The notes below the pieces were generated by a model, which was not told where the DNA came from, did not search any database, and worked only from the letters and a program-made list of their open reading frames with translations. This document shows, in pieces, positions 15,881 through 55,631 of a stretch of DNA of 64,000 bases. Source of the DNA: Lytechinus variegatus (Eukaryota; Echinodermata; Echinoidea; Temnopleuroida; Toxopneustidae); assembly GCF_018143015.1 (NCBI RefSeq), contig NC_054747.1:33447733-33511732 (forward strand), in the 5' to 3' direction. How positions within the stretch are numbered: the first letter of the stretch is position 1; every line of letters begins with the position of its first letter. Made by a program: the position numbers and the translations under genes.

Positions 15881-15971
15881 TCCGAAAGGATATATACATG
15901 TTGCTAGCACCTTGTCAATTAATCAGTAGTCTGTATTGTTTAAGTCACCGTGTGGTGAAATATATACAGCG

Positions 15972-20700: not shown

Positions 20701-21890
20701 CATTGGGCTTTGATAGGCTAGGGTATAATGTTGAATCAAGGGTTGTGTTTGGTTATTCCATTAGTTTGCCGAATTTACTCCGGAGCAATTGTCGCCAGAG
20801 TATATTCCATGGAGCCCTAGAAAAACAATTCGCTGCACGCTCATAATCATATATACATACACGACTATACATAGTCATTTGTAATTATGTACAATATTAA
20901 TTATCGTGGCCGAACGCTGCGGGGGCCTCCCCCTCCCGAAATTTTGAAAACTTACATTTTTTTTTACTGAACGTCATCACGAACATCATCCAAAATATTC
21001 TTGAAATCAATTTTATTTTAAAAATGAAAAAGCGCCCCAAGAAAAGCCCCCAAAGCCCCGTTGCTTTGATTAAATGGTCGCGCATTTATTACGTATTTCA
21101 ATATGGTTGGGTTGAGAGGGAAATTGAGAAAAAAAAGACATTTCAGACACAAAACCTTTTCTTTAAAACAATAACAATAGATTGATTAGTGCTGACTAGT
21201 AAACGCAAGAACACCCTCTTCCTATGGCCATAAAGGAGTGCAGTAATACAACAGCAATATGTACTTGTGCTAGTTCTCTCTCCTGTAGGTCCACATGTTG
21301 AACAAAGTTCCAATCCGTGTTAGTCTCTGCATACTATATGACTGCTGTCTCTCAAATATTCATCATTGTTGGATTGTTGGGGACGAAGGAAACGAATTTC
21401 TATGAGTAGATAAAAAATATAAAAGTATCACCTGATATAATAAATACATGTTCACACCATCGTTTCACCATTAAAATAATAGTACGTTGCCTGGGAATGT
21501 TTATTTGATAGGATCGTGATGAGAATCGGGGTAATTATGACCAAGAAATGGATCACCTGAAAGGGTATACATGTGCCTCTGTATTTCATTTGCCCACATG
21601 GTACAATGTGTCTTGTTCGGTTTTTGTTTATGTTTTGGGGACGAAAAGACTATACCTTTGAAGTTTAATAATTAAGTTAACTGCATACATGTTACTACTT
21701 GTATTCTGGGGGGCGTAACCGGGGGTAGGGGGCATTAACCCCCCCCCCCCCTCCCCTCAGAAAATTATCGTAGAAGAAAATGTTTTTTAAATGAAATACC
21801 CTTTTTGAAATAAAACATAATCCATTTTAGGTTAGAAATCACATTTTTTGCGGTGAGTGGACAAGTTGGTAGTAGACGAATTGGCAATTT
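20700..21890. other. intergenic stretch, no gene seen
   Basis: Includes a G-run/C-run element at about 21707-21765 (GGGGCGTAACC...TTAACCCCCC) related to other GGCGTAAC-ended repeats at 60000, 62106 and 63470. Confidence 0.45.
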
Positions 21891-22128: not shown

Positions 22129-22312
22129 TTAGATTACCTTTCCAACTGTCCCTTGTTTCCCAAATTTGAAGCCATCGTAGACACCTGTCTTATTGGGGAA
22201 CTCTTGCCGAACTCGTGTCACCACGCACGCTGGAAGAGGCCATCGAACTCCTTTACCCATGTATCCGTGCAAGTAATCTGACCAAATCCTGAAAGCAGCA
22301 AACCGATATGAT
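22129..22312 (-). CDS. receptor exon 7: C-terminal half of ballast domain
   Basis: Acceptor GGCATTTCAG|A, entering in phase 2. It encodes SYRFAAFRIW, HGYMGKG, PLPACVV, RVRQEFPNK and GVYDGFK, which align in order with AYRxxxxWRFG, LPSC, RIRKEFP and GxYxGFK of vertebrate P2X7. The stop TAA is 22129-22131. A GGAAAG|GTAATC donor just before the stop could instead lead to another exon, but a polyA signal downstream favours a terminal exon. Confidence 0.75.
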
Positions 22313-25300
22313 CTGAAATGCCATGGAACATCAGAAAAAAAAGACAATAAGAACACAAATATAGAGATTGCACTGGGCACACCCAAATGAAGCAATGAGA
22401 AATGTGACAGTTAACGGGGAGGGCAAAGCTCAGATAGATTAATCCAAGTCCTGGACGATTTTTAATGATTGGGAAAATCCATCGATATCAAAAGGTAGAT
22501 AGAGCTACAACTCTCTTTTTGGTCCACAAAAGTACTCCAACAGGTCAAAGCAGGAACAAAGTCACACACCCTTTTTTTATTGCGCATGCGTGTGCAAACA
22601 TCGCGTGTGGAGTACTATAATGAGTTGTTATGGCCACTAAAGGCCTGGTCACACCGCCTGAGCGTTGTTGGAGCGCTCGTGGAGCGGTAGGGAGAGAGGG
22701 TCGAATTTCGCTCATAAATTGGGGAAAAACTCGAAAACAAATTAAAAACAATCGAAATCGAAAATGGTGAACGGTAGCGAGCGGCAATGATTTTTTTTTC
22801 TCTCCGCTCCACGACCGCTCCAACAACGCTTGGGCGGTGTGACCAGGCCTTTAGGTGTGCTATAGTACTTTTCCTTTGCCCATGGGTCGTGCTTGCGGCA
22901 GCGCACGTCGAGCTCAATCTAGCTTATGGGAATCGATGGGAAAACCCTTTGCATCTAGACCGGTACATATGACCAACACATAATGGTGCACCTACGTCCC
23001 GTGCATCTCGTACTCATTCACTTTCGCATGACTGTTCTCTGTATTATGTGTGAGGGTGCATGTCTGTCTGTGAGTCGTGTGATGATTCTATGTTTACGTA
23101 CAGTACATGTATGTACAAAATGAAAAATGATAAGAAAAACCATGCAACAGTTCAGGAGGTGGACTAGGGATTCCCCTCTGCAAAAACTCCGGTGTTGATA
23201 TAACACTGCCCGAAATCTATATACATGTATATCCACACCAGAGAAGAGTTATACAACACTAGGTAGTTTTAAAACAGCATTGGTTTGATTCCAAACTGGT
23301 GCCCTTTCAATATTTCTCTGGTGTGGACATATAAAGATTCTGGGCTGGTGTTACATCAACACCGGAGCTCCTAAAGAATAACATAAATAAATGTTGCGTT
23401 CAGAAACGTCCAAAAGCATAATCCGTTAGCATTTTAATAATCACCTTATCATGATAATCTCCTTTTTTATCTTATAATCATTACTATACTTATCTGTAAT
23501 ATTTTGTTGTTTGTTGTCTTTTGTTCATAATTTTGTTTTATGATATTTCCATCCCTCTATTGCTTGAAAATTGTAGCTTAAATTCTTCCTTCCTTTACAT
23601 TAATGATAAGCTCTTACTTGTTCTCCATATATCCGGGAATTTGATGGTCTTTGCTCCTCAAAGAGAGAAAGACATGCAGAGAAGGTGTGTCAAGACAAAG
23701 GACTTTGAATTCTTTAGAATCAATGATACATCCATTGGTCTGGATTCCCGACATCTCGTGAGTTCGCGGCAACAGAGGCTTTCTACATCAGTCTGCATCA
23801 CAGGACAGTTCCCACACGAACACCAACGATTGTTCTCCCTCCTATACTGGACAGGTTCATCGTCACCATTATACCTGACTGTCGTTAACATCCCATCCGC
23901 CTCCCTACTTTCATGACTCTTGGTATCTTGGTCAGGTTCATCATCATTATCATAATTTTCGACTGCCATGGATATCCCATTCGTCTTGCTTCTTTCGGTA
24001 TCTTTGTATTCTGAAAAAAAAACATCGATATAAAAAATATGAAAAATAGATAGAGCTCGTCTTATGATGTCGCACACGACCTTGGAGCAACAGGGAAAGT
24101 GTTCCATGGCTCAATTAACAGGAGGCCTGTATGGGGCGATATCAACACGTAAGAAACATCACTCGCACACAAGAGAAAAAACAAACTATGTGGAACTTTG
24201 TGTGCGCTTGGCCATGTTGACCTTTTGGAGTATTTTGGAGTGTTTTTAGTTGGCTGAAAGACCATTATGGTACACTACCCATTTTTTTTCTAAATCTAAT
24301 ATTGAAAAGTATAGGACGGAAGGAATTTTAATTACTGATTAACCCGTACCCCCTTGCATTACACGATTGCACGTCGACGACAATGATAATATAGGCTACA
24401 GACCATCGTCCAGTGATATCTCGACACAGTATTTTTTCATGGATATTCGATAGGGAATATTAAACCGAGCATTTCAGATAACAATCGACTCAAATTATTG
24501 GTTAGTCTTGTGTTGTAAATCCAGTGTTAACTTTTGTAAAAAAAAAAAAAAAAAGAGCGAGAGAGAGTTAGAAATAGATACCCATTTCCAACGACCAGTG
24601 GCATGGACTTGCATGAAAATAATTATAGATCTTGATCTCTTTCAGAGTAAACCAGTGATTAATTTCATTAAAACAATATATCGTTGGATGGAACTCTTGG
24701 AAGAAATTATCAAGTTACATGTTGATGTTAAAGATGTCCGATGGTTGATCGTAAATAACCATACTGTATGTATCATAATAAACAGTAAATTTTTCTTGGT
24801 TAGAAAAGATAAGAATATAGAAAATATGTGATGATCAAAGCAACGCAAACGTTACCTTTTGTAAACCAGGGCCACCTGCCATGTCTTCGGTAAAAACTCA
24901 GGCCTACCGACAGGACTACAATAACCATGATAACCACTAGTAAAATTATCGTGATTATCACGCTTATAATCATAGTGGTCACACGATCATTAGAAACTGT
25001 AGGAGATAGTGATGAAATACATCGATAAATTGTATTAATAAAATAAATTGTTAATATCATCTTTACGTGATCTTATCATATTAGATGTAAATACAGTTTA
25101 GTGTCATTCGATAACCCGAAAGCATAGCGCATACTTTCAGGTTAGGAAATGCGACTTATATTGTCTTACACCAGTTGAGATGAATCGTTAAGGGAATGGT
25201 CCAGGCTGGGCCATATCTCATTAAATAGAGTAAAATTCACAAAATTACGAAGTTATTGAATTTTAAAGATTTGCATTATTCCGGTTATACAGTTCTAGGC

Positions 25301-28300
25301 ATGTTGTAATGAATATTCATTAGGTGGGCTGATGATGTTATATCTCGACTTCTACTTTTGTATATTTGTCATATGAACTGAGGTTTACTCAAAAAATAAT
25401 CTACCAAGTACTAAAACAATAGGATTAACAACTGATTAAGTGCATTGTTTTTTACTGCAGCAACTTATTTCATCATAATAGAGACACATCATTTACACAT
25501 GTATGGAAAAATGAAATATTTATGATTTATTCTAATAACATAAGCATGACATCATCAGCCCACCGAATTAATATCCATGACGATGTGCATATAACTGTTT
25601 TCACAAAATGTTGATCAACTTTGAAATTCAATAACTTTGTTATTCATTATCCGATTTTCATGATTTTGATGAAAATTTTAGCATTTTATTTTGTGAATTT
25701 TACTCTATTTATTTAGTTATAAATATTGTCATCCCTGACAATCCCTTTAAATCTTATGAAGAGTTACCACTACGATGGGCGGAAATCCCAGAGTGACAGG
25801 GGTCGCGCCCCCTACCCAAAATAGTAGAGGAGACACAAGATCAAATTTCCCCTATTATCTTTAGTCTTTTAATGATGAAGATTCGAAATCGGATAAAAAG
25901 TTCGTTTGGACGAGATGACCTTGATTTTTGGGGTGATAACTTTTTTTGCTTGTCAAATTTTCCAGCATCTGGTCCCCTACCTTCACTTCCGCCCTTTATC
26001 ATTGCATGCAACTAAGACCTATAGCTTCACTTAGTAAGCATACGCACTAGAACAAAACACAATGACTGATAAAGGGAGGGGGTATAGCACACCTTTTTGG
26101 CGGGAAGGGGCTCTGTCACAATTTGGGCTGACAGTTTAGGCGCGTATCCAGCATCAGATCCTACAAAAAATTTCATGGGCCAGATTGTCTGGGGACAATG
26201 GAGGCTCTATCACGCTTGTGCTTGAGCCCATAAGTTTCTCTGTCACAAAGAGAGGCGATAGACAGGGGTGCTTTTTATCCCCGCCCCTCTTCAATTTAAT
26301 GGCGAGCTTTCATTAGAGAAGCTCGACTTGAGACAACAAATATAGGCAAGAAAGGTGACACAACTTTACTTCCAACAATGATTAGGACTTCTGGACATTA
26401 CTTTCAAAAGTAAAAGCAAAAGGTTGAAAAGTCAGGCTGAGCTAGATATGAAAAAAAAAGTCGAGTGGCAAACTCACTAACTTTTCATTAAGAAATGAAA
26501 CACTGAAAGGTGTAGATAGCTTTATATTACTTATATGGTGTCTGTGTTTTAGAAATAGGGCGGTGAATCGTTCTTGGGAAATAAATCCTCCATGGGGCAA
26601 TTCCTACTCAATTTGCTTTTTGTAATGAAGGATCGTTCGTGCCAAAAGCGGCCTGTAATTCATTCACAAAATCGAGTGAGTGAATGATTTGTAGTCATTT
26701 ATCATCACTCAGTCGAGTGAGTGAAAGATTTATAGGTACAAATTTTGTAAATACTTTACCATCACTCACTCGGAAAGTGAAGGATTGTGCAATTTTATCG
26801 TATCAAAGAGCGAGAATCGTTTTGGACACCTCCCTCGCTGAAGTGGATGTACATCCACCCGGGACCTTGGGTGAATGTACGACTATTCACCAGTGGATGA
26901 GAGAAAAAACACTGGTGAGTGGTTCTGGAACTTCTGGAAAAGGTCGAACGTAATGACGATACGAATTTATTTATTCCTATAGATAAAAAAATCATACCAT
27001 GTGTAGCAGAATCCTCAAAAGAAATGACCACTAATGAGGTTCCATTCACGGCTTCCCCTTTAGCTTGACAAGTATAGTTGTGATCAAGATGAGACTTGGG
27101 TACCTGTCAATAAGAATGTAACAATTGTTCCTTGAAAACATAGCAATGAAATATATAGCAATGCGGAAGCGTACTTTGCCATCTACTTGACGGTATGGCA
27201 ATTATGAATGTCAACTTTATTAACAATGTAAGTCGATCTGGCGACAGATGTTAGCATATTTAACATTATTCCTTTTTTAATATTATTACTCTCTTTTTTT
27301 CTATGAATTAGATCCAAAGTACGTACAAGAATAATACATGTATTTACTTTTACCGATACACGATGCAGACTGCATGTTGATCTGCGTTTTTAAGGCCATG
27401 GGCACAGCTTACTGTAATTTCGTCTCATGTAAATTCCTTACAAATTTGTAAAACTATGAAAGGGTCGCTATCCGCATGAAAGAAGATGCATCTAATACGA
27501 CAGCCGATCAATATGCGCAATTATAAAACGGATACTCATATACATTACATCCTCATTCCTGTCATTGAGATGTATCAAAGGAAAATGTATTCTGTTGTGA
27601 ATGATGTTTTATTTCATTGATTTCCTCATTATTCTTAGCGTAATAAGTATGTATAAAAGGCGGATTCATATTTTCCAAAGTTTTCTAAGAAATATACATT
27701 TTCAAAAGTATACACCCCAAATTTGTGCCCTTAAGGCCCTATCTCACCAACGGAGACGTCGCCGCGACAGTCTCCAACTTATCAGTCGCTGCAGTCGCGG
27801 AGACGTCTCGGAGACAAAAATGGCTTGCGCTCTCACCAAGGAGACGTCTCGATGGAACGTTTGAAAGATCATACACCTGACTTGGAGCAGGAGGAGGGAT
27901 ATCAGCACGCGTTCAGTCACGTGGTTTCTGAAGTGGGTCAAACAGTGTGAAGAAGTGTCGCGGAGACGTCTCCGCAATGTATTATAATTTTTTGGGGGGT
28001 CTCCAGCAGGTCTTCGCGATGTCTCTGAGACGTCTCTGAGACATCGCGGAGACATCGCGGCGACGTCTCAGCAGTCGCGGATATCATTAGTCTCCGAGAC
28101 GTCGCAGCAACTGATGGAGACTTCTCGGAGACGTCGCGGAGACTAGAAACAGTCTCCAAAAATATTAAACATGTTTAATCTTCTTGCGACTCCTCGGAGA
28201 CTCTGTAATTTTCATGAGACGTCTCAGAGATGTCGCGGAGACGTCTCTGCAACTAGCAAAATTTGTAGTCGCGAACTAGTTTCAAGCCCAGTGAGATACC

Positions 28301-31300
28301 CCCTTTAGACTCAACGTCTGGAAAGATATACATGTAGAGACCTGAACTTGTGATGAAATGCTGAACAGCCCATCTTTCTCCTGCGTCTGGTAAGTTGCAT
28401 TTTTATTTAATCCTCCATCGCTTTGAATCCAAGTAAGATTTGGTAGAGGTCGAACATTGAAAAGTTTAGAAACAAGTATTACATCATCCGACGTGTCCTT
28501 GCCAATGGTAGACCTGTTAACATGGTAGACGCATCCCCCTTGCGCTGTGAAAGTACAGGGCTCTATAATCTCGATGATTGGTTCAAGAGGCTCTGCTAAA
28601 GCTAAGGACATAATAAAAATTGACATGCGTAAAAATTACGTCAAGGTGAAATGAAATTAGTTTAATTAACATTCTGTCTAAATTGTCATAAAAATGAGGT
28701 AGTAATTGATTGGCATGAAATGCCCCCCCCCCCCCTCCAGGAAGCTGACAAAAGGATCCCTAAATATCAGTATACTTACACGTCAGTTATATTTCGATGC
28801 CAATAAATTGTTATATTTATAGACAATTTTGGTTGATGTAAGTAAATAACGATGTTTATGGTGACATATTTAATTGGCACGTTGATGGTTTTCAATCACC
28901 ATTAGCTGACTAAAAGCCTCTCCATTGCCTTAATACAAGAACTCTGATGAAACGCCCTTGAGCATGTGAAAAAGATGTGGAACGGCGCAATAAAATGTCA
29001 TTTCATTCGTTTATTTCCATTTTCAACAATTACAGTTTCTTCTGTACATGTTGACATATATACATAACAAAACATATTTCAATTATTCCTGTACAGAAAA
29101 TTATATTCAAGATTATTACAAATCAGGTTGAAAATGGAGGAGGCTGCTAAAAAGCGGAGCTTGTAGAGTGCAGCCTCCTAATAAATATTCTTGCAGTTGT
29201 TTAGCATATAAAAAAAAATAAGGTACCAACTTGAGCATGACCAGTTGAATTAAAAAGAAAAATTGGAAATAAAAATAGAAAAGGAAATAAGAAAAAGAGA
29301 GATTAAAGGTCTCCAGAATCCAGCCCCAGCACTCACAGACGGACCTCGCCGATCAACAGGAAAACGAAAGAGATGTATAAGTGTACGTGACATGATAAAC
29401 ATGTTTGATTAAAAAAATACAAGAGCTTGAGTGATGAAGAGTTAAATTCAATGGTTATCTTGAAGAAATTTTTTGAACTTATATTTGAAAGAATTAAGGC
29501 TTGGAGATTCTTTGATGTTACTATTGATAGTTCCCCAGAGTCTAGGGCCTTCAAAAGTAAAAATTGATTTTGAAAGGATGGTCCGGGGTAGTGGTAAATG
29601 AAATTCATCGATTGACGTGTGGGATATTTGTGAAGGGTTTTGTTTTTGTTAAATGAAAAATTAAATATGGGTGGTAACATATTATTGTTTAACTGATACA
29701 TGAATTGACCTAAATTATATTGGTACAGTGTTTTTATTTTTAGAATGTTATTGTTTAAAAACAACTCATCTGTGTGAGATCTCCAGGACAAGTTGAAAAT
29801 AACACGCAATGCCTTCTTTTGTAAAAGCAATATTCTATCTAGGTAGGTTGAGTGTGTGTTTCCCCAAACAATTGCTCCATAATTTAGATATGGTAAAATT
29901 AATGTTGAATAAAGCATTTTTAGGGAGGAAGTTGGAAGAAAAAACTTAACTTTGTTGATAACACCAATATTGCGTGAAATTGTGCGACATATAGAGTCAA
30001 TATGCGATTTCCAAGATAATTTGTTGTCTATTATGAGGCCTAAAAATTTAGTTGTAGTAACAACTTCAATGTCTACATTGTCTAATTTGATATTAAATGG
30101 CAATTGTTCTAAAGAATTGCTAAAAAGCATGCATTTCGTTTTTTGAATATTTATTGACAATTTGTTAGCCTTAATCCATTGTACCAATTTATCCAGTTCA
30201 GTGTTCAGTACATTAATTAAAATATTGGGGTTAGGATGAGAGTAGAGTACATTTGAATCATCTGCAAAAAGGACATAAGATAATATTTCAGAGGAGTTCT
30301 GGATGTCATTTATATAGATAATAAATAAAAGAGGGCCCAGGAGGCTACCTTGGGGAACACCCCAGTTAACATTTTGTAGAGAAGAATTTTGTTCATTTAT
30401 GCTTACGAATTGTTTGCGATTTACAAGGTAGTTTCTGAACCACTCCAAGGCCTTCCCACGAACTCCATAATTTTCAAGTTTGTAGAGCAGTATCTCATGA
30501 TTTATGGTGTCGAAGGCCTTGGAGAGGTCCAGAAAAACACCTATTGTATGTTCAAAGTTGTCAATAGCTTTTGTGATTTTGTCAATAAATGAGAGAGTGG
30601 CATGAGATGTACTATGTTTTTGGCGAAATCCAAATTGAAAATCGGAAATTATATCATATTTATTCAAAAATTTTAATAATCTTGTGTAGATTACCTTTTC
30701 CATAACTTTAGACAAAGTAGGTAATAAGGCTATTGGTCTATAGTTACATACGTTAATCTTTTCTCCTTTTTTGTGCACTGGTATTATATTTGATATTTTC
30801 ATACTGTCAGGCACTACGCCATTACTTAAAGAAAGGTTGAATATGTATACTAATGGGTCAACAATGTATTCTATAACATTTTTTAATAAAATATTGTCAA
30901 TACCATCGTGACCACAGCTTTTTTTGTTTTTTAAGTTGTTCACCATATCTATTATTTCATTTCTATGTACAGGTACTAAAAATAAAGAATTTGGATTTGG
31001 TTGGTGAATGAAATCCGTATATTTCTTTTGGGTTAAAGGTATATTATCTGCAAGACTTTTTCCAATTTGTGTGAAGTATTGATTGAATATATCAGCTATA
31101 CGAAAAGAATCGTGTATTTCAACATTATTGTGCTTTATTGTTTTTATGCGTTCTTTTGTGCTTTGTTTATTTATGGCAGTGTTTATTGTTTTCCATGTTT
31201 TATTGATGTCGTGTTTGAAACGAATTAATTGATTTGTGAAATATTTTCGTTTTTCACTCCGCAATAGTTTAGTGAGGGTATTTTTATATGTAGTATATTT

Positions 31301-34300
31301 ACGATGTGACTTTTCTGAGCGACTGATTTTATCAGCATAGTACAAGTTATTTTTGCGATTTATTGATCGTAGTATTGATTTCGATATCCATGGAAGTCTT
31401 GGACTCTTTTTATAATTATTACATTTACTAACCAATGGTACATGTCTATCTAAATGTGAAGTAAAATTTTCATAAATATATTATATGCTGCATTAGTATC
31501 TTGAGAACTGAACACCTCAGACCAATCCGCGTCTTCAAGACCATCTTTCAAGCTCTGTAAATTATTTGGTGTTAGTCGTCGGAATTTATGTTGCTGGGTA
31601 TCTTTTTTTGCTAACCTAAAGGGAGTTCTTGAAAATATCGGGAAATGGTCAGAGATATCAGATAAAATTATTCCAGACTCGGGTAAAGGAGAGACATTAC
31701 TAAAAATATTATCAATAAGGGTTGCAGATTGGTTAGTAACCCGAGTGGGTTTTGTTATCAATGGTAAAAATGATGATGTAAGCATGATATCCAAAAATTC
31801 ATGCGATCTATTGTGGTTAGATTTAGATATGTCTATATTAAAGTCACCTACCACATAACAGTCTTTATTATAAAAAAACGGATTTTGTAGAAAATCTTGC
31901 AAGTATTCAAAAAAATAATTTGTGTTGGAGTTAGGAGGTCTATAAAATACTGCGATCAGTATGTTTTTAGAGTTTGGTACCCGAATTTCAATGATAAGAG
32001 ACTCTACAATTTCATTCATACAACTAAGATCATTGTGAGTAAAATATTCTAGCTGTTCATTGATATAGATACCTACCCCTCCTCCCCGTCTATTACCCCT
32101 ATGGTTTTCTACAAACGTATAACCAGAAAGTGAATATAAACCATCAGATTCCTGAGATAACCATGTCTCAGTTAGCGCGATTATGGACATTTTATTATGT
32201 GAAGATGAATCGGATAAAAGGCGTAAATTGTCGAAATTAGAGCTCAAACTCCTTATATTCATGTGCATTATTGAAAGTGTATGTGTAGATTTATCAAGTG
32301 AATTAAATTGATTTATTGTAAAGTAATTTGAACTTGGATAATTATTGTCGTTAATTTCATTTAAATCAGTAGCTAAATTCATCTCCATTGATACGAGATT
32401 TTCAAACGAAGAATTGCAGTTAGTATCTTGGGTTTCGTTGTTCGGCCTAAACAAATTGAAAAACTCATCATCATTCAACGCTGAAAAGGGGAAATTTTCA
32501 ATCACTGGGAATTGAAAGAGAAAAACACGAAATGCAAAAAATTCGCTTCCTGTAGAGATCGACGAGACCGCGTGCTCGTGTCAGCAAGGCAAAGACCTGG
32601 AGAGAATAATAATTAGATAAAGAAAAACTGGTTATACACATTCCTATGAAGAAAAGGAACACAAACACATGAGAAGTCATCAGATAATCATTGGCAATTG
32701 TATTATACGATGTCAATTGCATTGTAAATATTTTGTACTAAATAAGCATAAAAGGGTTGGGTGAGCTCCCGTGAATAAAACAAGCTGGGAAGCCTCCCCT
32801 GTATAGAATAGGATAAGGGATAACACAAATTCAAATTATTCAGGGCATGCTTCCCCGAAAACTGAATGAAGGTGGAAAGGCATTCGAATGTAGTTATGGT
32901 GTTCGTACATTTAAATATAACTTGAACTCTTACACCTGGTATAACAATTTGTTTGCCTTGTTCGAAATACCGTTGAATTAATGAATAAAAAGAATAATCA
33001 TCTGAGATCCAGACTATGTTCACACTGATTTGTCAAAAACATTAATTTTACTAAAGCTATCTGTTTTTTTAGGTAGAATGGTTGCTGCTTTTACAAAAAA
33101 TATGTCTTCTATACGTCCTCAGTGAACAGAATAAACCTACATGACAATTACAAAGTTCTTTCCTCTTTTGACCTTACAGAGCAATGTACACTTATGATTA
33201 TGATTAATAATTATTTGTTTTCCTTCTTTTTTCTTATTCTCCAAAACAAAAAAAGTCTTTATAAATAATGGACAAGCATGGCGTGTACGCAAAGGTTAAA
33301 ACAAGATAGTCATTGAATCCAAAATTTCAAAATAAATCCAATATGAGCAGTTTACTGGATAATTTAGGATTCATCAAAATCACAGGGTTTTTTTTAATAT
33401 AAGACTTAGTATGATATATTCCTTTTTTTTTACTCCGAAACGAACCGAGAGATTTTATTTTAAGTCCACCGGCAAAATGTTAATCTTGTTTATGTGTATA
33501 CATTTCCGGAGAAATGAATAAAAGGAATATTTTACTGAGATCTAGGTCATGTTCACACTTAAGTAATCAAAAATAAGTCTAGAGTATTCAAGCACCAATA
33601 GATCACTGGATCAATTAATACTCCTCAAAGATTTCTGAAAATCTTCTCTTTTTTGAAATTCAGAGTTACAATCAATGTTTCTGTTTGAACTCTTAAAAAA
33701 AATGTACATTTATAAATATACCACAAAGTTAGGAACCAATTCTAAAATTTGACCGACACCTATAAAACACATCGTTATCATGTTTCAATTACCGGATAAA
33801 TTATTTGGACAAAAAGAATGTTCTGCTGGCTACAGGTCATGTTCATAATGTAGAATGAAAAAAATAAATCTAATTCAATTCATCATTGAACTAGCTTACA
33901 TCTTCTTTCCAATACTATTTACAACAAAAATGAAAAGAAAAAATCATCATAAATGATCATGTTCTTTCCTCCATTGGTTTGAAGTAAAAGTACCATGATT
34001 AACATGATTAAAATCTATATTTTTATCAAAAGAGCTTGTGTTAATCATGTGAATGACTATGTCAATACAAACTGTAATCAATTGTAATACAAGAGGTCGA
34101 ACATTTCTATGCACATGATGATATAAATGAATCAAGATTCAAATTCAAAGACATGTCTAGAATGCTCATGACCGACCGTTTATTGGATTGTGAACCCATC
34201 ATGCTCACAGAGCATTATTATGAGAAATTAAGGCCACGAAGGTGAAAAAACAATTCCAAGTTTCAACTTGCACTAAGCATGTCAACTTCCTACTCAGTTG

Positions 34301-37300: not shown

Positions 37301-40300
37301 TGGGCCATAAAATTGTAGCAAGACCGGTCGCAACGGCTTCCAACATTGCACTACCTTTTCATTATATGCGACCGTTCTACTAGAAATCCCTCGTGCATCA
37401 CTCGCATGTGATCGCACGAGCACAATAAAAGCATATGCGACTTACTCGTGCAATGGGATTTACTGGTTGTTTTTGTTGTGCGGCAGCTGTTGCAACTGTG
37501 AAAGCCTCTGTGCGATCTTATGAGATGACTGGCGATTGATGCCTGTTGCACGACCAAAAGGTCGCAAATGGTCGTACGTTAATTGTGAAAGGGGCTTGTT
37601 TATCATCTTGTTAAAATCGTGTCACTAGATTCCCGCATTGTTGTTATATAGTGATGTTTGTCTTCCGTTGGAAGCTCTGTGACCACGAAGACTGGTTTAT
37701 TGCCTTATTGTCAATATTTCACCTGTTCAAGGGTTGTAAGAATGATCTGTTTACACTAAGGTTATCTTTCTGTGTCCAATTTTAGTTTAAACTTTATTTT
37801 TTTTGAGGTTCTATGATATTCGTAGGCATGAGTAATATCTCCCCACATTAATCACTTACCTATAACTCTCAAGTCCGTATAGCCTCTTTCCGTATCAACA
37901 TCCATGGTATCAATCCCCACAACTTGGCATGAGTAGGTTGTCTCGTCCTGAACAGTTACATTTCTGATGATCAAACTGTAGTCCTTGGTGATGCTGAACC
38001 TCTCAAAGCCCGTTACAGGATCTGTAATGCCCCTATAATATCGGGCTACGAGCGATGCTCCGTCGTCTGGTGCTCCTGTAAACATGGTAAAGGTGTGTTT
38101 GTACCAGTAGACTGCAAGTGCAGGAACGGAGAAATTACAGGGTAGGGAGATATTTCTGCCTCGCACCGCTGTTAAACTCTCCTCTGTTTGAAGCCTGAAT
38201 GCTGCATGTAAATGAGGACAAAAGGGCAATCATATACCAGTATACGCCAACAAACTCACACCAGACGCATATATACATATAGTCCCACACACACACCCAA
38301 ACCCACCCTCATCCACACCCTTTATTTTCACCCTCGCACTCAAACGCACACCCTCACATACACACACATCCTCAAATCACAGATCCCCAATGTAAGGAAA
38401 ACATATGTCATGAACAAATAGTTATTATACTGGCCTGAAAGACTATGGTTGTCCAAAATGATTTGAAGCCATTTTTATATGGTTAGTGTTAACGCTTGGA
38501 TGATCAGAAAGTATTATTTTAGTGATGTAAATTTTGATTTGTGCCGAAGTAAGGTATGACAACAATGGAAGAACTCAGGGGCCGATTACACGAAAGGGTC
38601 TTTGCAAGGACCGTCTTTCGTGTCGCCCATCGTTTATGATAAGCTGTATGCGGGGTATTTCTGAAATGTATGATAAACAAATAAAATTCAATAGCTAGCA
38701 TTCAAATCAATTTTGATACGATTTCATGATATATCACATCATTTTACATACAAATATTTTGTTAACTTCAACGAATGAAGAAAATATATTTGCTGGTAGT
38801 TTATTTAAAATGCGTTTCACATGGAGCATCATAATAAATGGGCGACACGAAAGACGGTTCTTGCAAAGACCCTTTCGTGCAATCGGCCCCAGGTGTTGAT
38901 AATGTTACAATACCACAAGGGTTGCATTTAAAATCCATTTTAAAACATTTTCATTACGATTGTTTAATGATTATTATTCATGAGTGCAATAGTTCCGAAT
39001 ACTACATCAGCGTGCAAAATAAAAGAATCTTTTCAACGATGAGGCTTCCCGTCGCTGAATAGGAGACTAGTAGGAGTTTAGATCTACTCTGGTCTAACTT
39101 AAGCTTTTTTTTCTTTTGAAAACATTATCTTACCTGCGCATGGCGTGTGTACGTAGCGCAGTGATGGGGTATATGCTTATCCATTTATTGTGAAAGTCCG
39201 TATGAGGCACTAAGCAGGCCATTAATATGCCAACTATGGAACCATATATCTATTCGAGATTTGTCTAATACATGCATACTTTCAACCAATCAGAACACAG
39301 GAAACTATTCATCTAAACATCTGCCCCCATTGACCCAAGCCCGGGCCCAAGCCAAGCTCATTTAGTTGCATGGAGTAAGCGGACCAAGCTGCCATTATTC
39401 CATGAATTCATACCAATCTAGCCAATACATGTATAGTTTACTTTTAACCAATAAGATCACGAGAAACTATACATCTATACCACTATTCCGCTCAAATATG
39501 CATCCATTCCATGGCAGTCCAACCAATACATGTATCGTTTTAACAAATCAGAAAACGAAAAACTATACATCTATGCTGACGATGATTGTCGGTATAATAA
39601 AGTTCTTTTGGTAAACCTAGTCACCGAGTTCAGTGTGTGTGCTCGTTGGAAAAAAGGTCAATACTCGACCTCCAGACCTATGCCACTCGCAGGCAATGAA
39701 GTCATCCCGGGGGTGGGGGGCAGTCAACTATTTTACCGTACACATTCGTGACAAAAACACGCGTTTAAAGGGGTGTTTTTTCAGTTTTGGACGCGGTCCG
39801 CGCGTGGACTCGTTAAGGGTATCAAAAACATTGATTTTTAAGAAAAAAGGGCAGTCAACTATATTGCCGTACACACTCATGACCAATAAAACGCGTTTAA
39901 AGGGGTGTTTTTTTCAGTAAATTGGACGAGGTCCGCGCGTGGACTCTTTAAGGGTATCAAAAACACTGATTTTCAAGAAAAAGGGTGGTTTTGAAAGAGT
40001 AGTCAATGGTCAATCGCGAGGTCAAACGTATTAAGGGTATTTCCCCCCCAAAAAAAAATTTAAGACTAGCCAAAAGTGTTTAGGGTAGTTTTTTACCCCC
40101 AAGCTTTTTCCCCTGAGGTCATATTTTGGCGACAACTTATTTAGGGGCCAAAATGTGTAAATAATGCCCGCGAAAAACCTTTTTAGGGGGTTATTAATAG
40201 CACACAGAGAAAAACTCGTTTAGGGGGTCTTTGGAAATTCCTTGGTCACGCGAGTGTACAGCAATATATTTGGCTGCACCCACCCCCCCCCCCCGGGTCA

Positions 40301-43300: not shown

Positions 43301-46300
43301 GGTTTTCAGCAAACCTTCACCAATCTATCTTTTCTGCTATTTTCACAGTAAACCATTTTCAGGGTGAATTTCCCCTTCAAAACAGGTTGATAGGATGGTA
43401 CCTATAGAAACACCTACAAATTTAAATCCCTGATTCGCTACACATTTCAAAATTCATGCGGTAACCGTTACCATAGAAACTAGTTAAGGAACCTGATATC
43501 CACTGGGACTAGCTGCAATGAGGTATTACTCTGAAAAAATAACACTAGTTGCTGTTATTATATCATTTACATTAAATTATAAATGTATCATATCAATATC
43601 TTTTCTATCCATTATGATGTTGAAATATGAAAAAGTTACTTTTATTACAGAACGTTTCGTTATTTTTTCTGTTTTCCAAGTTATGCAAGTGGTTCAAAGA
43701 AATCCCGAACTCGTCTATTTCAGTATGTCAATGGTAGCTCATATTGGTGTTTACATTACAATTCGTTGATATACATGTATGTCATAAAGTGCTGTTCTAC
43801 TATACAAACTGGCCAAGATAAAACATTTCAGCACTTAGTAATTGAAATAATTTTGGCATGAAAATGTTTAATCATATAAAGGATAAAGTATAGACCTAAA
43901 ATGATTTATTTTAATCCAAATAATATCTCATCAGTTCCTAATACACTTTTTGTCGATAGGAGTCATTCGAGGTCAATAATTATGACTAATATAAACTGGA
44001 AAGGCTCTATCTTTTCCTTTGCTGATCTATAGGATGTCTGATCTTTACCTCTGTCATTTTTACCTCTGCCATTATTACCTCTGCCATTTTTACCTCTGCC
44101 ATATTTGCCTCTGCCATTATTACCTCTGCCATTTTAACCTCTGCCATTTTTACCTCTGCCATTTTTACCTCTGCCATTTTTTACCTCTGCCATTTTTACC
44201 TTTGCCATTATTACCTCTGCCATTTTTACCTGGCACCCTTATTACTATGATTCATCATTCTTCATGTTTTTAACCAGTTCTTCTTTCTCTGTTATATATA
44301 ATTTCTGTTTACTTAAATAAAATTAATGAAGTCAATTATCATTACAAAGCCTTAGAACGCTGTATCAATAATCTCCACGTGTACATTAACCTGAGTTGTG
44401 ATGAGAACTCAAGAAAATACGACATTCATAACAGCAACACGTGTGCGTCATAGTGCGTTGTCAACTGGGGTCAAACGTTACGTGGGTTTCCCCAAACCGA
44501 TCAGTAATCTATATTTAGGCTCTCAATGGTGGATATCCTTGCCAAGATTGTGGTGCAGCTGTACATGCATCCATGAATACAGTCTGATTATGCTATATCT
44601 CGTTCATTTCATTTTCCACGCTCGACACTATTGTGTTTTAGCACACACATTATCTACGAATTTCACATGCTTAAATATTGTACATTTATTTTCAAACATT
44701 TGGCTGATCTTTTAAAGTCAGGTTTAGAAAATTATTTAATAAACTGAACGACAGAAGTATTAGAGAGCTATGTCCACAGTCCCCTAATTTGCATACAGAC
44801 CAGGATGTGCATATAATTGTTTGATAAAAATAAGTTAAATTTATGTCATAAGCTGTTTCATCCCATTTTAATGAAATGTTGGTCGCTATGCTGTTTGGAT
44901 TTACATGAATTTTTCCAAATTTATTTTCCAAGTTTATTCAAATAAACTTTTGGATGGGGTTAGTTTGTCGCTAATATGATCCTGAGCCCTTTCTCATTAT
45001 ACTTTCTAAAACTATATCTTTGGAAACTGGTTCAAGAAACCAGTTTTGAAGATCACTTTGCTATAGTGTTCCCACCAGAAAGTGGTTTTCGTAATCACTT
45101 CGCGTATAGCGATCATGGAAAATACATCACCATTGTCATGATTGTTGTTTTCCGAACATGTTTGGAAGATCGCTTCAAAGACCGCTTCGAGCGTTTTCAT
45201 CACACGTTAACTAATTTCTACGAAACAAGTTTCATTTTCTCTAGTTTTAGGATGATAATGAGAACGTGGTTAATAGACCCCTTTCTCATTACCGTCCTAG
45301 AATTCCAGTCTACCATATATAACACCTTTTAAGATATTATTTCTACACCATGTCAAATGGACTACAACCATTCTTTAAAAAGAGGCCTATATAAACTTTT
45401 GAAGGCATTTTGGGGTAAAAGTTAGGAACCAGAATATTTCACATGATCCCAATATGCTCAATTCGATTAGATCGGTTTCCAGTCTGACTTCTCAGGGGGT
45501 TTTTTAACACCCAATTTGCATAAACAAATTACTAGCAAATTTAATATTTATAATCTTCTTTCTAGCAGATTTATAATATTTGATTACATTTTACATGTTG
45601 ATAATGCAAAGTCCTACATTCATAAAGTGTACCATTTGTGAAAGGTTGCTCTTCTCATTTAAAATTACTTGATTATCCAAATTTATGCATATTTTGCAGA
45701 ATCGTGCTATAACCTGATAAATTCAACTCTAATACTTTTTTATTTTTCATACAGATATGATTTACAGCTTTATGAATAGTTGTTCGAGCCCTAAAATCAT
45801 TTTGAAAAATTATGTGATATAGGCCTATTTTTCTATGAATTTCTTATTTATTCATTTCTATTTCTACCACTTGTTTTCTAGTAGGCTTACATAATTTCAT
45901 TATTGTCGTGATTCTATAACATTTGTCAACTTAATGCCTAGAATCTTAGAAGCAAAGATCCCGGTGATTATGAGTCATATTTTTCCAAATGTTTGATATA
46001 ATGGATACTTGTATGCAAGTATGCAATACTTAGTAGAAAAAACCTCTTCACAATTCAATGTTCAATTTGAAATAAAACTTTTTTAAAAAAAATATTTGAA
46101 GAACTATGGATGTAATTATACTTATATTGTAATAATTGCATATAAAACAAATGAAAACAATTTCATCTAGGTGAGCTTCATTCATCAGGCATCTTGCACC
46201 AGAAAAATTACAAGGTAAGAATTTATTTTCTGAAATTGTAAATAAGGTCACAGTAACAAGGATTTGTATATATGTGTAGATAATATTACAGTATTTTGTA

Positions 46301-47365
46301 GCTATATCCAACAGTATGTCCCATGTGTGGGACTGTACTAATTTCTGAAAGCATCATAAATGCCAGATATTACAGGAGCTTAAAGCCAAACAAGAAATAA
46401 TACATCTATTTTTTTCAATATTTTGCAGAGGAGGTAATGAATATCATGTTTACCGAGGTAACTCCAAATAATATGACACACTTGCAAAACTTGAAGGTCA
46501 AAGGTCATGGCATATTCAACTGCTCGTTTATCGACAAAAAATCAGAAATATATTTTTTTTTCTTCCGCTATATATAGGGGGAGAAAATAAATCTATTCCT
46601 GATTTTTTTGTCGATAAACGAGCAGTTGAAACTGCCATGACCTTTTGACTTTCAAGTTTTGCAAGTGCCGCGCAAGCGAGGCCATTAGAAAAGTGGCAGC
46701 AGCACCCATTTTGACTTAAAATACCAAAAAATGGCGCGTCATAGCCGCTGCGCGAGAACTGTAAGGCGCAGCGCGCTTAAAATTATTTTGGCTTTTACAT
46801 CGTCAATTACCTCATATGAAAAAAATTGAGAAAATTTGGAGTCGGTACAATTTAGATTTCCTTGCGGAGGGCGGGGTGATATGACACAGAATTACCCTAT
46901 ATTGCAAATATATAGGCCTATAAGGGAAATCTGCATAATTAACTGACATGGCTAACCTCAAATAGATTTTTTTCTGAAGGCATACATATTATGTATGCAA
47001 GATTTCACATTATCTATGTCTGTGAAAGCGAATATTTCAAAAATAATATTGTAGAAATAAGATTATCCATAGCCAATTTGGCAGCCATTTTGTTTATACA
47101 AATTATTTGGTCAAAACATGAGATGTCGGCTGGGAACTGGTCTTGCCAGATTGAGCACATTAAAATTGATATACATGTAAACTGGTTCTCAACGTTTACC
47201 CCCAAATGGATCTCGAAAATCTATTTTTCCCATATGGGTCTTGTCTAAGGGTAGATTATACACTGCACGATAAAAAAATATAGGCCTACTTACATTCTGA
47301 AATGCTACACATGACCATGAAAACGATAAAGATGAAGCATTTTGTGTTTGATGAGAGCATGGTGG
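22129..47365 (-). CDS. Ig-superfamily receptor with P2X7-type ballast cytoplasmic domain (seven coding exons)
   Basis: Type I membrane receptor assembled from exons 47294-47365, 37860-38201, 28342-28592, 26998-27103, 24856-24996, 23618-24010 and 22129-22312. Every intron is GT-AG and the phases join (1,1,0,1,1,2). Order: signal peptide (1-22), V-type Ig (about 23-136), second Ig (137-255), TM helix, then a tail carrying the Cys-rich ballast domain known from the P2X7 C-terminus. In rat P2X7 that domain binds zinc and guanine nucleotide. Seven cysteines correspond in position: WCxCGxC, LCC, GC and PAC. As sequenced, a one-base frameshift after CCRE leads to TGA at 23658-23660 (419 residues). 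With one base restored the frame would run to 22129, about 494 residues. Ligand and signalling are unknown; an immune-type receptor is the inference. Introns of 1-9 kb are full of transposons. Confidence 0.8.
22637..22853. mobile_element. MITE with TAAAGGCCTGGTCACACCGC ends
   Basis: CTAAAGGCCTGGTCACACCGC on the left and its inverted copy on the right; GAGCG(C/G)TC and CGTGGAGCGG are also mirrored. It lies in the last intron of the receptor gene. Confidence 0.75.
23186..23371. mobile_element. fold-back MITE with CTCCGGTGTTGAT ends
   Basis: CTCCGGTGTTGATATAACAC on the left versus GTGTTACATCAACACCGGAG on the right. Internal CTCTGGTGTGGA is mirrored too. In the last receptor intron. Confidence 0.65.
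23618..24010 (-). CDS. receptor exon 6: juxtamembrane tail and N-terminal half of ballast domain
   Basis: Acceptor TTTTTTTTCAG|AA, donor GAACAA|GTAAGA. Two acidic repeats, YDNDDEPDQ and YNGDDEPVQY, precede the zinc-type motif RWCSCGNC and SLCCRE. Downstream the homology moves to another frame: NGCIIDSKEFKVLCL, SLHVFLSLR and GYMENK, which then joins exon 7 in the correct phase 2. The frame change lies at about 23738-23768 and equals one missing base. Without it the frame ends at TGA 23658-23660. It could be a true lesion, an allele or a sequence error. Confidence 0.75.
24856..24996 (-). CDS. receptor exon 5: transmembrane segment
   Basis: Acceptor ATCTCCTACAG|TT, donor ACAAAAG|GTAACG, phase 1 to 1. 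It encodes SNDRVTT followed by about 27 hydrophobic residues (Ile/Val/Leu-rich) and a stop-transfer sequence FYRRHGRWPWF. Confidence 0.8.
25189..25750. mobile_element. fold-back element with TTAAGGGAATGGTC / GACAATCCCTTTAA ends
   Basis: Inverted halves share AGAGTAAAATTCACAAAAT, GAATTTTAAAG and GGTGGGCTGATGATGT. A relative occupies about 41940-42480. In a receptor intron; no coding capacity. Confidence 0.7.
26670..26790. repeat. TCACTCAGTCGAGTGAGTGAA short repeats
   Basis: Three degenerate palindromic units built on TCACTC(A)-CGAGTGAGTGAA within 120 bases. Confidence 0.55.
26998..27103 (-). CDS. receptor exon 4: C-terminal part of second Ig domain
   Basis: Acceptor TATTGACAG|GT, donor CACATG|GTATGA, phase 0 to 1. 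It encodes VPKSHLDHNYTCQAKGEAVN, carrying the F-strand Cys in the classic D-x-N-Y-x-C-x-A context, then TSLVVISFEDSATH. Confidence 0.8.
27731..28308. mobile_element. fold-back element packed with GAGACGTCTC / GTCGCGGAGAC motifs
   Basis: Ends TTAAGGCCCTATCTCAC and GTGAGATACCCCCTTTAG. The interior is unusually GC-rich, with many copies of GAGACGTCTC and CGCGGAGAC in both orientations. It ends about 33 bases from the splice donor of receptor exon 3. Confidence 0.75.
28342..28592 (-). CDS. receptor exon 3: N-terminal part of second Ig domain
   Basis: Acceptor GCTTTAGCAG|AG, donor GTTCAG|GTCTCT, phase 1 to 0. It encodes EPCTFTAQGGC, later RPLPNLTW (the C-strand Trp), and ends SISSQVQ. The B-strand Cys expected 13 residues before the Trp is Ser (LVSKLFNV). 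Two extra Cys sit near the start. N-glycosylation sites occur at NRS, NLT and NAT. Confidence 0.8.
29333..31435 (-). CDS. LINE reverse transcriptase region
   Basis: About 700 codons, the last part of ORF2. Motifs in order: NYRPIALLP, GFRQKHST, FLDLSKAFDTINH, GVPQGSLLGPLLF, YVLFADD (catalytic Asp pair), NKLSIN and KFLG. A C-terminal region follows, with YGAIVWG and LLLQKKALR. It starts in the middle of the polypeptide: there is no ATG at 31435 (TTG), and the frame extends upstream to the frameshift. It catalyses target-primed reverse transcription in this class of elements. Confidence 0.85.
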   Translation of the reverse strand: MVSKCNNYKKSPRLPWISKSILRSINRKNNLYYADKISRSEKSHRKYTTYKNTLTKLLRSEKRKYFTNQLIRFKHDINKTWKTINTAINKQSTKERIKTIKHNNVEIHDSFRIADIFNQYFTQIGKSLADNIPLTQKKYTDFIHQPNPNSLFLVPVHRNEIIDMVNNLKNKKSCGHDGIDNILLKNVIEYIVDPLVYIFNLSLSNGVVPDSMKISNIIPVHKKGEKINVCNYRPIALLPTLSKVMEKVIYTRLLKFLNKYDIISDFQFGFRQKHSTSHATLSFIDKITKAIDNFEHTIGVFLDLSKAFDTINHEILLYKLENYGVRGKALEWFRNYLVNRKQFVSINEQNSSLQNVNWGVPQGSLLGPLLFIIYINDIQNSSEILSYVLFADDSNVLYSHPNPNILINVLNTELDKLVQWIKANKLSINIQKTKCMLFSNSLEQLPFNIKLDNVDIEVVTTTKFLGLIIDNKLSWKSHIDSICRTISRNIGVINKVKFFLPTSSLKMLYSTLILPYLNYGAIVWGNTHSTYLDRILLLQKKALRVIFNLSWRSHTDELFLNNNILKIKTLYQYNLGQFMYQLNNNMLPPIFNFSFNKNKTLHKYPTRQSMNFIYHYPGPSFQNQFLLLKALDSGELSIVTSKNLQALILSNISSKNFFKITIEFNSSSLKLLYFFNQTCLSCHVHLYISFVFLLIGEVRL
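31450..32505 (-). CDS. LINE AP-type endonuclease region
   Basis: 351 codons from ATG at 32505. APE-type endonuclease motifs are visible: MNIRSL, LTETWL, GGGVGIYI, FYRPPN, GDFNID and SDHFPI. The frame closes 15 bases short of the reverse-transcriptase frame because of a one-base shift near 31470-31480. Confidence 0.85.
   Translation of the reverse strand: MIENFPFSALNDDEFFNLFRPNNETQDTNCNSSFENLVSMEMNLATDLNEINDNNYPSSNYFTINQFNSLDKSTHTLSIMHMNIRSLSSNFDNLRLLSDSSSHNKMSIIALTETWLSQESDGLYSLSGYTFVENHRGNRRGGGVGIYINEQLEYFTHNDLSCMNEIVESLIIEIRVPNSKNILIAVFYRPPNSNTNYFFEYLQDFLQNPFFYNKDCYVVGDFNIDISKSNHNRSHEFLDIMLTSSFLPLITKPTRVTNQSATLIDNIFSNVSPLPESGIILSDISDHFPIFSRTPFRLAKKDTQQHKFRRLTPNNLQSLKDGLEDADWSEVFSSQDTNAAYNIFMKILLHI
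32920..35160. repeat. degenerate long tandem repeats (0.4-0.8 kb units)
   Basis: GATCATGTTCTTTCCTCxATTGGT occurs at 33955 and 34735; TTTCAACxTGCACTAAGCATGTC at 34260 and 34777; ATGAATAAAA-GAAT followed by ATGTTCACACT at 32985 and 33515. The pieces are imperfect and unequally spaced, as expected for an old tandem array. No coding signal recognised. Confidence 0.6.
35455..36303 (-). CDS. L1-type ORF1-like RNA-binding protein of a retrotransposon
   Basis: 282 residues from ATG at 36303. A Lys/Glu-rich coiled coil occupies about residues 45-125. It is followed by an RRM-like segment (SNLLFYGV) and a basic C-terminal domain (IIAKMVY, RNILAKTAYNLRKHKK) as in L1 ORF1 proteins, which trimerise and chaperone LINE RNA. 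The frame is intact. It lies upstream of, and on the same strand as, the LINE at 29-32.7 kb, but 3 kb of repeats separate them, so it may belong to a different insertion. Confidence 0.65.
   Translation of the reverse strand: MSNIYNLRSKGLSAESMDSTNQRPCSSHDRSTMQQTVPSGEKPPGEVSNLTLVDLHKTLTEFSTKVCQKLDNIQTNIASITKKVNDLEKAAEDSNAHILNLEKKTIPELEQKMQKEMKEIKDKMMLAEIYQRKSNLLFYGVKQKREENVYEVLKETLVYIGLTREEADSVAFVNAHRLPQRRQTEGIPQPIIAKMVYMHQRNRILSTFESRRPPRVEGQEARRISVRTDLPPVLKDRRNILAKTAYNLRKHKKLSTKIVVEGINVVLYCKEKESRVWQVYTD
36800..36910 (+). mobile_element. LINE 3' tail with (AAAT)n end
   Basis: GAATTGGCCACCCTGTATAAAGATGTGAAATAAATAAATAAATAAA is typical of a LINE 3' terminus on the plus strand. A TG-rich stretch lies before it at 36668-36720. 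No coding remnant recognised. Confidence 0.45.
36953..37597. mobile_element. fold-back element with AAGCCCTTTTCACAATT ends
   Basis: AAGCCCTTTTCACAATTGATGTACGACC is mirrored by GGTCGTACGTTAATTGTGAAAGGGGCTT. The interior is rich in CGATCG, GTCGCA and GCACGA words. It sits about 260 bases from receptor exon 2, in the downstream intron. Confidence 0.75.
37860..38201 (-). CDS. receptor exon 2: V-type immunoglobulin domain
   Basis: Acceptor TTTACATGCAG|CA, donor TTATAG|GTAAGT, 342 bases, phase 1 to 1. It encodes one V-set domain: SLPCNFSV (B-strand Cys), VYWYKH (C-strand Trp), ITKDYSLIIRNVTVQDETTYSCQV (shown in pieces: DYSLIIRNV, then DETTYSC with the F-strand Cys) and a G strand ending YTDLRVIG. 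Potential N-glycans at NIS, NFS and NVT. Cysteine pair, Trp and D-x-x-x-Y-x-C are all present. Confidence 0.9.
38283..38385. repeat. CA/CCCACAC-rich simple repeat
   Basis: Low-complexity ACACACCC-type sequence immediately upstream (minus-strand sense) of receptor exon 2. Confidence 0.7.
38577..38891. mobile_element. fold-back MITE with GGGGCCGATTxCACGAAAGGGTC ends
   Basis: The left arm (38578-38630) pairs with the right arm (38839-38891) almost perfectly over about 52 bases. The spacer is AT-rich. In the first receptor intron. Confidence 0.8.
39210..40845. repeat. 1.6-kb inverted repeat with internally repeated arms
   Basis: The left arm (about 39210-39570) reads GGCCATTAAT...CCAAGCCAAGCTCATTTAG. 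The right arm (about 40370-40845) is its inverse, ending ATTAATGGCC. Each arm holds several 80-100 base units built on CTGATTGGTTxAAACTATACATGTATTG and GAGCGGAATxxTxGCAT. The centre (39717-39985) is a two-copy tandem of about 130 bases with ACGCGTTTAAAGGGGTG and GTCCGCGCGTGGACTC. Confidence 0.75.
44046..44231. repeat. 15-bp minisatellite TACCTCTGCCATTTT
   Basis: About 12 head-to-tail units with TTTTT/TTATT variation. One to two units of the same word occur at 1163-1190 in intron 1 of peptide gene 1. Confidence 0.9.
46477..46671. repeat. long imperfect palindrome (fold-back)
   Basis: CACACTTGCAAAACTTGAAGGTCAAAGGTCATGGCA, then AACTGCTCGTTTATCGACAAAAAATCAG, is mirrored on the other side of a short ATAT centre. 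Confidence 0.8.
47294..47365 (-). CDS. receptor exon 1: signal peptide
   Basis: Acceptor TTCTACAG|CCACC-ATG (start at 47360), donor CAGAAT|GTAAGT, phase 1. It encodes MLSSNTK followed by the hydrophobic core CFIFIVFMVMCSIS. Its last base T joins CA of exon 2 to make Ser. The exon matches 55560-55631 in length (72 bases), phase, start position and much of its sequence, which supports it as a real exon. That it belongs to this receptor gene, 9 kb away, is inferred from strand and phase. Confidence 0.65.
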
Positions 47366-55559: not shown

Positions 55560-55631
55560 TCATCATGCTCACACCAAACAGAATATATGTCATCTTCATC
55601 GTTTTCATGGTCATGTGTTGCGTATCACAAT
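55560..55631 (+). CDS. signal-peptide exon of a divergent paralogous receptor gene (partial)
   Basis: Acceptor ACTTTGCAG|TCATC-ATG (start at 55565), donor CACAAT|GTGAGT, phase 1. It encodes MLTPNRIY followed by VIFIVFMVMCCVSQ. Compared with the minus-strand exon 47294-47365 it has the same 72-base length, the same 5-base leader before ATG, the same phase and the shared core FIVFMVMC. The remaining exons would lie beyond 64000: the equivalent intron of the minus-strand gene is 9.1 kb, and only 8.4 kb remains here. That this gene also encodes Ig and ballast domains is inference. Confidence 0.6.

Follow-up and report, generated by a model that had tools for sequence, protein, structure and literature searches.

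An immunoglobulin-superfamily receptor gene of Lytechinus with a predicted P2X7-type ballast domain as its cytosolic tail

The window, a stretch of 64,000 nucleotides of the Lytechinus variegatus genome (C8:33447733-33511732), holds on its minus strand seven exons of a predicted immunoglobulin (Ig) receptor gene, all of which have AG/GT borders. This is the set given in a preliminary description of the locus, and the borders proposed there for the transmembrane (TM) exon (24856-24996) and for the first tail exon (23618-24010) proved exact. Exon 1 (47294..47360) carries the start codon (CCACCATG) and a signal peptide, which was judged by eye without a dedicated predictor, and has a phase 1 donor; the NCBI model P0001 starts eight codons further upstream (to 47384). 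Exon 2 (37860..38201, phase 1-1) encodes a V-set Ig domain, as had been claimed, on the strength of its splice borders and a Pfam V-set match (E 7.5e-14). The first part of a C2-type Ig domain lies in exon 3 (28342..28601), where the B-strand cysteine is replaced by serine (LVSKL), and the second part (YTCQA) in exon 4 (26998..27103). The TM helix is encoded by exon 5 (24856..24996), recognized by its hydropathy (mean peak of 3.64 over 19 residues) and splice border, with a donor in phase 1. The tail occupies two exons. Exon 6 (tail exon 1, 23618..24010) contains a linker and the first half of the ballast domain (WCSCGNC, LCC, GC; Pfam P2RX7_C E 9.8e-8), and exon 7 (tail exon 2, 22129..22312) contains the second half (SYRFAAFR, LPAC, RQEFP, GVYDGFK; P2RX7_C E 2e-5) and the stop codon; every P2X7-type tail motif that had been named is present in the sequence. 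A possible exon 8 (21352..21399, minus strand, phase 0), recognized by homology to the end of the L. pictus protein P0002, could follow a donor at 22138 and would provide the alternative C-terminus KFVSFVPNNPTMMNI. The best protein match is LOC121419662, an uncharacterized L. variegatus entry of NCBI, with 100% identity over 71% of the read-through of the exons.

Several other features were observed in the window. The intron between the V-set and C2 exons harbors a LINE retrotransposon (29333-32580, minus strand; RVT_1 3.6e-37 together with endonuclease open reading frames). A 319-residue open reading frame at 35455-36414 (minus strand) resembles LINE ORF1 by eye and has no Pfam match at 0.001. 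Repeated GTCTCCGCGACGTCTC-like units, also recognized by eye, lie at 27750-28260 (minus strand) in the intron following the exon for the first C2 part, and a tandem repeat with the in-frame reading LCHFY/LCHYY is found at 43995-44273 (plus strand). An uninterrupted frame of 374 residues for a rhodopsin-type GPCR (7tm_1 6.5e-49) spans 15930-17051 (plus strand).

The second Ig domain of the preliminary description is weak when taken alone (C2-set_2 17.9 bits, cut-off 21), but passes this cut-off in the proteins P0001 (22.0 bits) and P0002 (21.9 bits), although not in P0003 (17.9 bits). Alignment A2, from which P0013 and P0017 were left out, contains 17 ectodomains; five of them (P0001-P0004 and P0011) have a serine in place of the B-strand cysteine of this domain, and the other 12 have a cysteine. 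The canonical C2 B-strand cysteine, one partner of the B-F disulfide, appears to be lost in the ballast clade. In the AlphaFold model of P0002 the two Ig domains are mostly good (ten-residue blocks at 76-96), with a dip to 44-62 at about residues 141-180, and helices are formed by residues 12-27 and 268-302, in keeping with a signal peptide and a single TM helix. When the ectodomain of this model was submitted to Foldseek, Roughest D1-D2 ranked first and the top matches included nectin-4, butyrophilins, and PD-L1 (TM-score of 0.75 when scaled by target length); numerous chains of antibodies and TCRs (V-C pairs) were matched as well.

The P2RX7_C score of the tail, on which the preliminary description had made its domain assignment depend, is significant for the two tail exons (32.6 and 25.0 bits, above the curated cut-off of 23.5) and for the L. 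pictus gene models described below, and the tail also matches four distinct P2X7 sequences in the PDB (best E 6.7e-11). A published account of the ballast domain gives the number of its conserved cysteines as seven, around two zinc ions (PMC9587614). In our own mapping of their positions, MAFFT aligns the seven tail cysteines (WCSCGNC, LCC, GC, LPAC) with those of a P2X7 chain; in the alignment made by phmmer the CC pair falls elsewhere. Of the two binding functions originally suggested for the tail, that of zinc is plausible from the alignment of these seven cysteines, but that of nucleotides is doubtful. Guanine nucleotide is contacted in rat P2X7 by R546, H547, R574, R578, and K583 (Rump 2020, PMC7016195), and two of these five residues, R546 and R578, are kept in the urchin tail, where H547 is replaced by F, R574 by V, and K583 by N. 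The same source describes the contacts as only partly kept outside mammals, so they are not defining for the ballast domain. In the AlphaFold model, which was built with 19 alignment rows, five of them with ballast sequence and one of these partial, the ballast region has pLDDT values mostly under 50. The P2X channel family gave no Pfam match in P0001-P0003 (E up to 0.1) or in six exon translations (E up to 1).

The 497-residue read-through was searched against 5.8 billion proteins, and nine of 4621 candidates had E values up to 10. The whole architecture is found in one protein in the L. pictus gene models P0002 and P0003, and in both the TM exon is joined to the tail exon, as the preliminary description had supposed for the window. 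P0002 aligns with the read-through over 100% at 81% identity, a likeness far above chance, and P0003 over 96% at 82% identity. Their Pfam matches are V-set 4.7e-14 and P2RX7_C 8.3e-17 (62.2 bits) for P0002, and V-set 1.1e-11 and P2RX7_C 2.3e-19 (70.5 bits) for P0003, which by eye is modelled without a clear signal peptide. The two are 81% identical to each other and may be paralogues or alternative models of a single place; since they have one LOC name in common (LOC129267461), they are possibly not two genes. Two more of the four L. pictus models with a tail, P0020 (LOC135154986) and P0021, were found by profile search. Modelled without an Ig part, they consist of a TM-like stretch and then a ballast tail (P2RX7_C E 3.9e-18 and 7.3e-22, respectively) that begins with (R)EYKDTKRSK, as exon 6 does. 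The Ig-only L. pictus model P0011 (LOC135154985), whose LOC number is adjacent to that of P0020, is perhaps its other half, to go by the numbering.

The domain order that the preliminary description proposed to look for in other echinoderms is found in L. pictus gene models. No Ig-ballast fusion was seen outside Lytechinus at the sensitivity of a search with P0002 residues 345-475, in which three of 16 candidates had E values up to 0.01, every one of them a Lytechinus protein. Proteins shorter than 0.55 of the query are invisible to this search, which is why P0020 and P0021 were missed. On the evidence of the gene models, the Ig-ballast fusion exists as a real gene structure.

The exon phases had been described as consistent throughout. 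They are so from the signal peptide up to the start of tail exon 1, but not inside that exon, where the frame shifts, and a single-frame reading of all seven exons was rejected because it fails there. The break lies within the ballast domain at 23745..23746 (minus strand), where the window is one base short relative to the L. pictus proteins. The main frame of tail exon 1 reads LCCRELTRCRESRPMD and soon reaches TGA; the +1 frame, followed from IQTNGCIIDSK on, reads IQTNGCIIDSKEFKVLCLD and continues to MENK, and it is the only frame that meets the last exon in phase 2. An uninterrupted ballast reading frame, absent at the window locus, is present in all four L. pictus tail models, and their unbroken reading of (E or K)IQTNGCI locates the loss of a single base to about 23745-23746. 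A mini-intron absorbing the break was rejected by eye because it would remove a conserved motif. Past the break, identity to P0002 is 34/39 and 54/60 residues, as against 96/110 for the V and 112/122 for the C2 domain. The path of P0001 runs in frame from the TM exon into tail exon 1, leaves it at an internal phase 2 donor (CAG/GTATAA, last base 23875, minus strand), and proceeds to the last exon, skipping the cysteine half of the ballast; the ballast piece that remains scores 21.6 bits with P2RX7_C, below the cut-off of 23.5. Either this splice form is RNA-backed or it is a gene predictor's way of dodging the break. The break itself may be an assembly error, an allele, or a lesion, and the L. 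variegatus tail, one base out of frame in the assembly, could be either intact or broken in the animal itself.

The receptor is not alone. The profile search gave 23 hits, comprising 19 Lytechinus proteins (16 from L. pictus and 3 from L. variegatus), 2 from Diadema setosum, and 2 fish Ig proteins. Eight of the L. pictus hits are on contigs of 42376555 nt and all three of the L. variegatus hits on contigs of 43542320 nt, the other eight L. pictus hits carrying no such value. C8 carries the stronger V-exon matches of the L. variegatus genome, from 30.49 to 34.72 Mb, and weaker Ig matches are found on C1, C9, C11, and elsewhere on C8. Relatives that share the V-C2-TM half end in different tails. 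P0009 has a P-loop GTPase-like tail (MMR_HSR1 3.4e-7). The tail of Diadema P0018 is 33% identical to that of P0009 over 230 columns (1.2e-32); for P0018 itself no Pfam match to a GTPase was found at 0.05, and a PDB search gave Ig matches and no GTPase. The tail of P0006 has a coiled coil, seen by eye, and a ubiquitin-like end (ubiquitin 22.8 bits, below the cut-off of 25.4). That of P0014 is Death-like (Pfam 0.04, below its cut-off), and a PDB search with P0014 gave the death domains of THOC1 (0.0008) and RIPK1 (0.002).

All three L. variegatus loci that were inspected, those with the ballast tail, the GTPase-like tail (L036), and the coiled-coil tail (L028, assigned without its ubiquitin-like end located), have a TM exon ending in phase 1, and three tail types stand behind the same kind of junction. 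The L028 gene is arranged head-to-head with the window receptor. Its signal-peptide exon is in the window (55565..55631, plus strand; 87% identity to P0006 over 23 residues), and its V, C2, TM, and coiled-coil exons follow on the same strand beyond it; the genome search flagged one stop inside the V match and one inside the C2 match. Phase 1 borders are common in Ig genes, and the common phase therefore permits an exchange of tails without proving it. We consider it likely that these genes form a family that extends across about 4 Mb of a single chromosome and whose members have the V-C2-TM half in common and differ in the cytosolic module.

Ballast sequences are numerous in L. variegatus. At least 34 exon-level P2RX7_C matches were counted on 16 contigs of the genome, a lower bound since the second tail exon of the window was itself missed. 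L022 and L025 are two-exon, apparently free-standing ballast loci whose phase 2 intron is that of the window tail, and L023 is an intronless locus; C4 and C3 have places that score similarly. Of the other genomic copies among the best candidates, L021 (C11:27534000-27543900) is the closest, with 54% identity over 70 residues. It is intronless and broken, with its cysteines kept, and adjoins, on the same strand, remnants of a PF13843 transposase (5.3e-27), which we take to be of the piggyBac type. A ballast tree of 12 rows, the genomic ones being the six loci L021-L026, gives no source for the tail since none of its nine inner branches is well supported. The phase 2 intron common to the window tail, L022, and L025 indicates that the receptor probably gained its tail as two exons of a free-standing ballast gene.

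In our judgment the window locus probably encodes a Lytechinus single-pass receptor composed of a signal peptide, V-set domain, C2-type Ig domain, TM helix, linker, and P2X7-type ballast domain. The tail could also be foreign to the receptor in one of two ways. We think it unlikely that two genes have been merged, an Ig receptor ending soon after the TM helix and a separate ballast gene starting inside tail exon 1, possibly at a methionine (ISMAVEN) early in that exon. Such an arrangement would agree with the abundance of ballast sequences and the free-standing look of L022 and L025, with the modelling of P0020 and P0021 without Ig, and with the fact that a retained post-TM intron would end the Ig protein after a short hydrophobic stretch, but the acceptor of tail exon 1 lies in the right phase 845 bases past the TM exon, a TM-like stretch directly precedes the tail in 4/4 L. 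pictus models, and in the paralogues a TM exon with this same phase leads into other modules. That the tail is a KolX or piggyBac-accessory ballast which landed in the gene and was only picked up by gene models seems to us about as unlikely. The ballast fold has been derived from KolX of Kolobok transposons; KolX of Kol0 Kolobok has it, and a related piece, from which most cysteines are missing, occurs in a small number of piggyBac families (PMC9587614). The closest copy, L021, does keep its cysteines beside transposase remnants. However, L021 and L023 are intronless and the window tail shares its phase 2 intron with L022 and L025, its cysteines are kept in both Lytechinus species, and no transposase was noticed beside it by eye.

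With somewhat less than an even chance, the ballast tail of L. variegatus is decaying or spliced around, and the real product is the P0001 form, which has the TM helix and the linker but just the C-terminal half of the ballast and so lacks most zinc-type cysteines. The one-base break in tail exon 1 and the internal phase 2 donor that joins the last exon in frame speak for this, as does the finding, among the best candidates scored, of just one such tail on C8, where the other ballast match is L023-type. Yet no second lesion was seen, conservation past the break resembles that of the ectodomain, the internal donor GTATAA fits the consensus worse, by eye, than the normal donor GTAAGA, and the missing base falls within a short GGGAA run, a plausible site for an assembly error. 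Decay would be compatible with a receptor carrying a ballast tail, an explanation that would then apply to L. pictus. For the family as a whole, we lean toward the view that clustered V-C2 receptors of Lytechinus exchange whole cytosolic modules of the ballast, P-loop GTPase-like, ubiquitin-like, and Death-like kinds at one phase 1 post-TM junction, which would connect similar recognition heads to different intracellular outputs, and that in the ballast form a zinc domain related to transposons was captured as a receptor tail independently of P2X7.

Vertebrate P2X7 (P2RX7_C, PF20478) is likewise a membrane protein with a cytosolic ballast end, and its seven cysteines align with those of the tail. 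The urchin protein differs in being a single-pass Ig receptor with no P2X channel and two of the five GDP contacts, and its ballast is divided between two exons, whereas that of P2X7 is assigned to exon 13 (Rump 2020, PMC7016195). Free-standing ZCD/ballast proteins, nanor-like proteins, and KolX of Kolobok have the domain in common with the urchin tail, and L022 and L025 the phase 2 intron as well. Ballast domains are, however, described as "typically" in short proteins without a TM segment, with two Ixodes exceptions, in a study whose main text does not contain the word "immunoglobulin" (Rump 2020, PMC7016195), and the urchin ballast is a receptor tail. Searched at the level of titles and abstracts, with most subscription journals outside the scope, the literature yielded no description of an Ig-ballast fusion; the combination is apparently undescribed, though present in NCBI gene models.

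The two-Ig ectodomain followed by a TM helix is like that of nectin, PD-L1/CD80, and butyrophilin-type V-C2 receptors, from which the urchin protein differs in its cytosolic module and in the loss of the C2 B-strand cysteine in the ballast clade. Clustered paralogues with differing cytosolic ends are also known from the Alr genes of Hydractinia and the KIR/LILR genes of mammals, but the urchin members differ by whole enzyme-like or scaffold domains.

How such a receptor might work can be outlined from these likenesses. If it is expressed, its V-C2 part would recognize a ligand, either microbial or on a cell surface, in the manner of nectin, PD-L1, and butyrophilin-type pairs. Clustering of the receptor would then gather ballast domains, presumably stabilized by zinc, under the membrane to form a docking scaffold, and sister receptors with other tails might feed comparable recognition into other pathways. 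In P2X7 itself, the function of the ballast with its Zn2+-binding sites is unsettled (PMC9859053). If the proposed receptor is confirmed, a second lineage, in which the ballast is the tail of a channel-less receptor, would suggest that this domain is a portable membrane-proximal module rather than a channel-specific one, and the family with differing tails would be an invertebrate case of one recognition fold coupled to several outputs.
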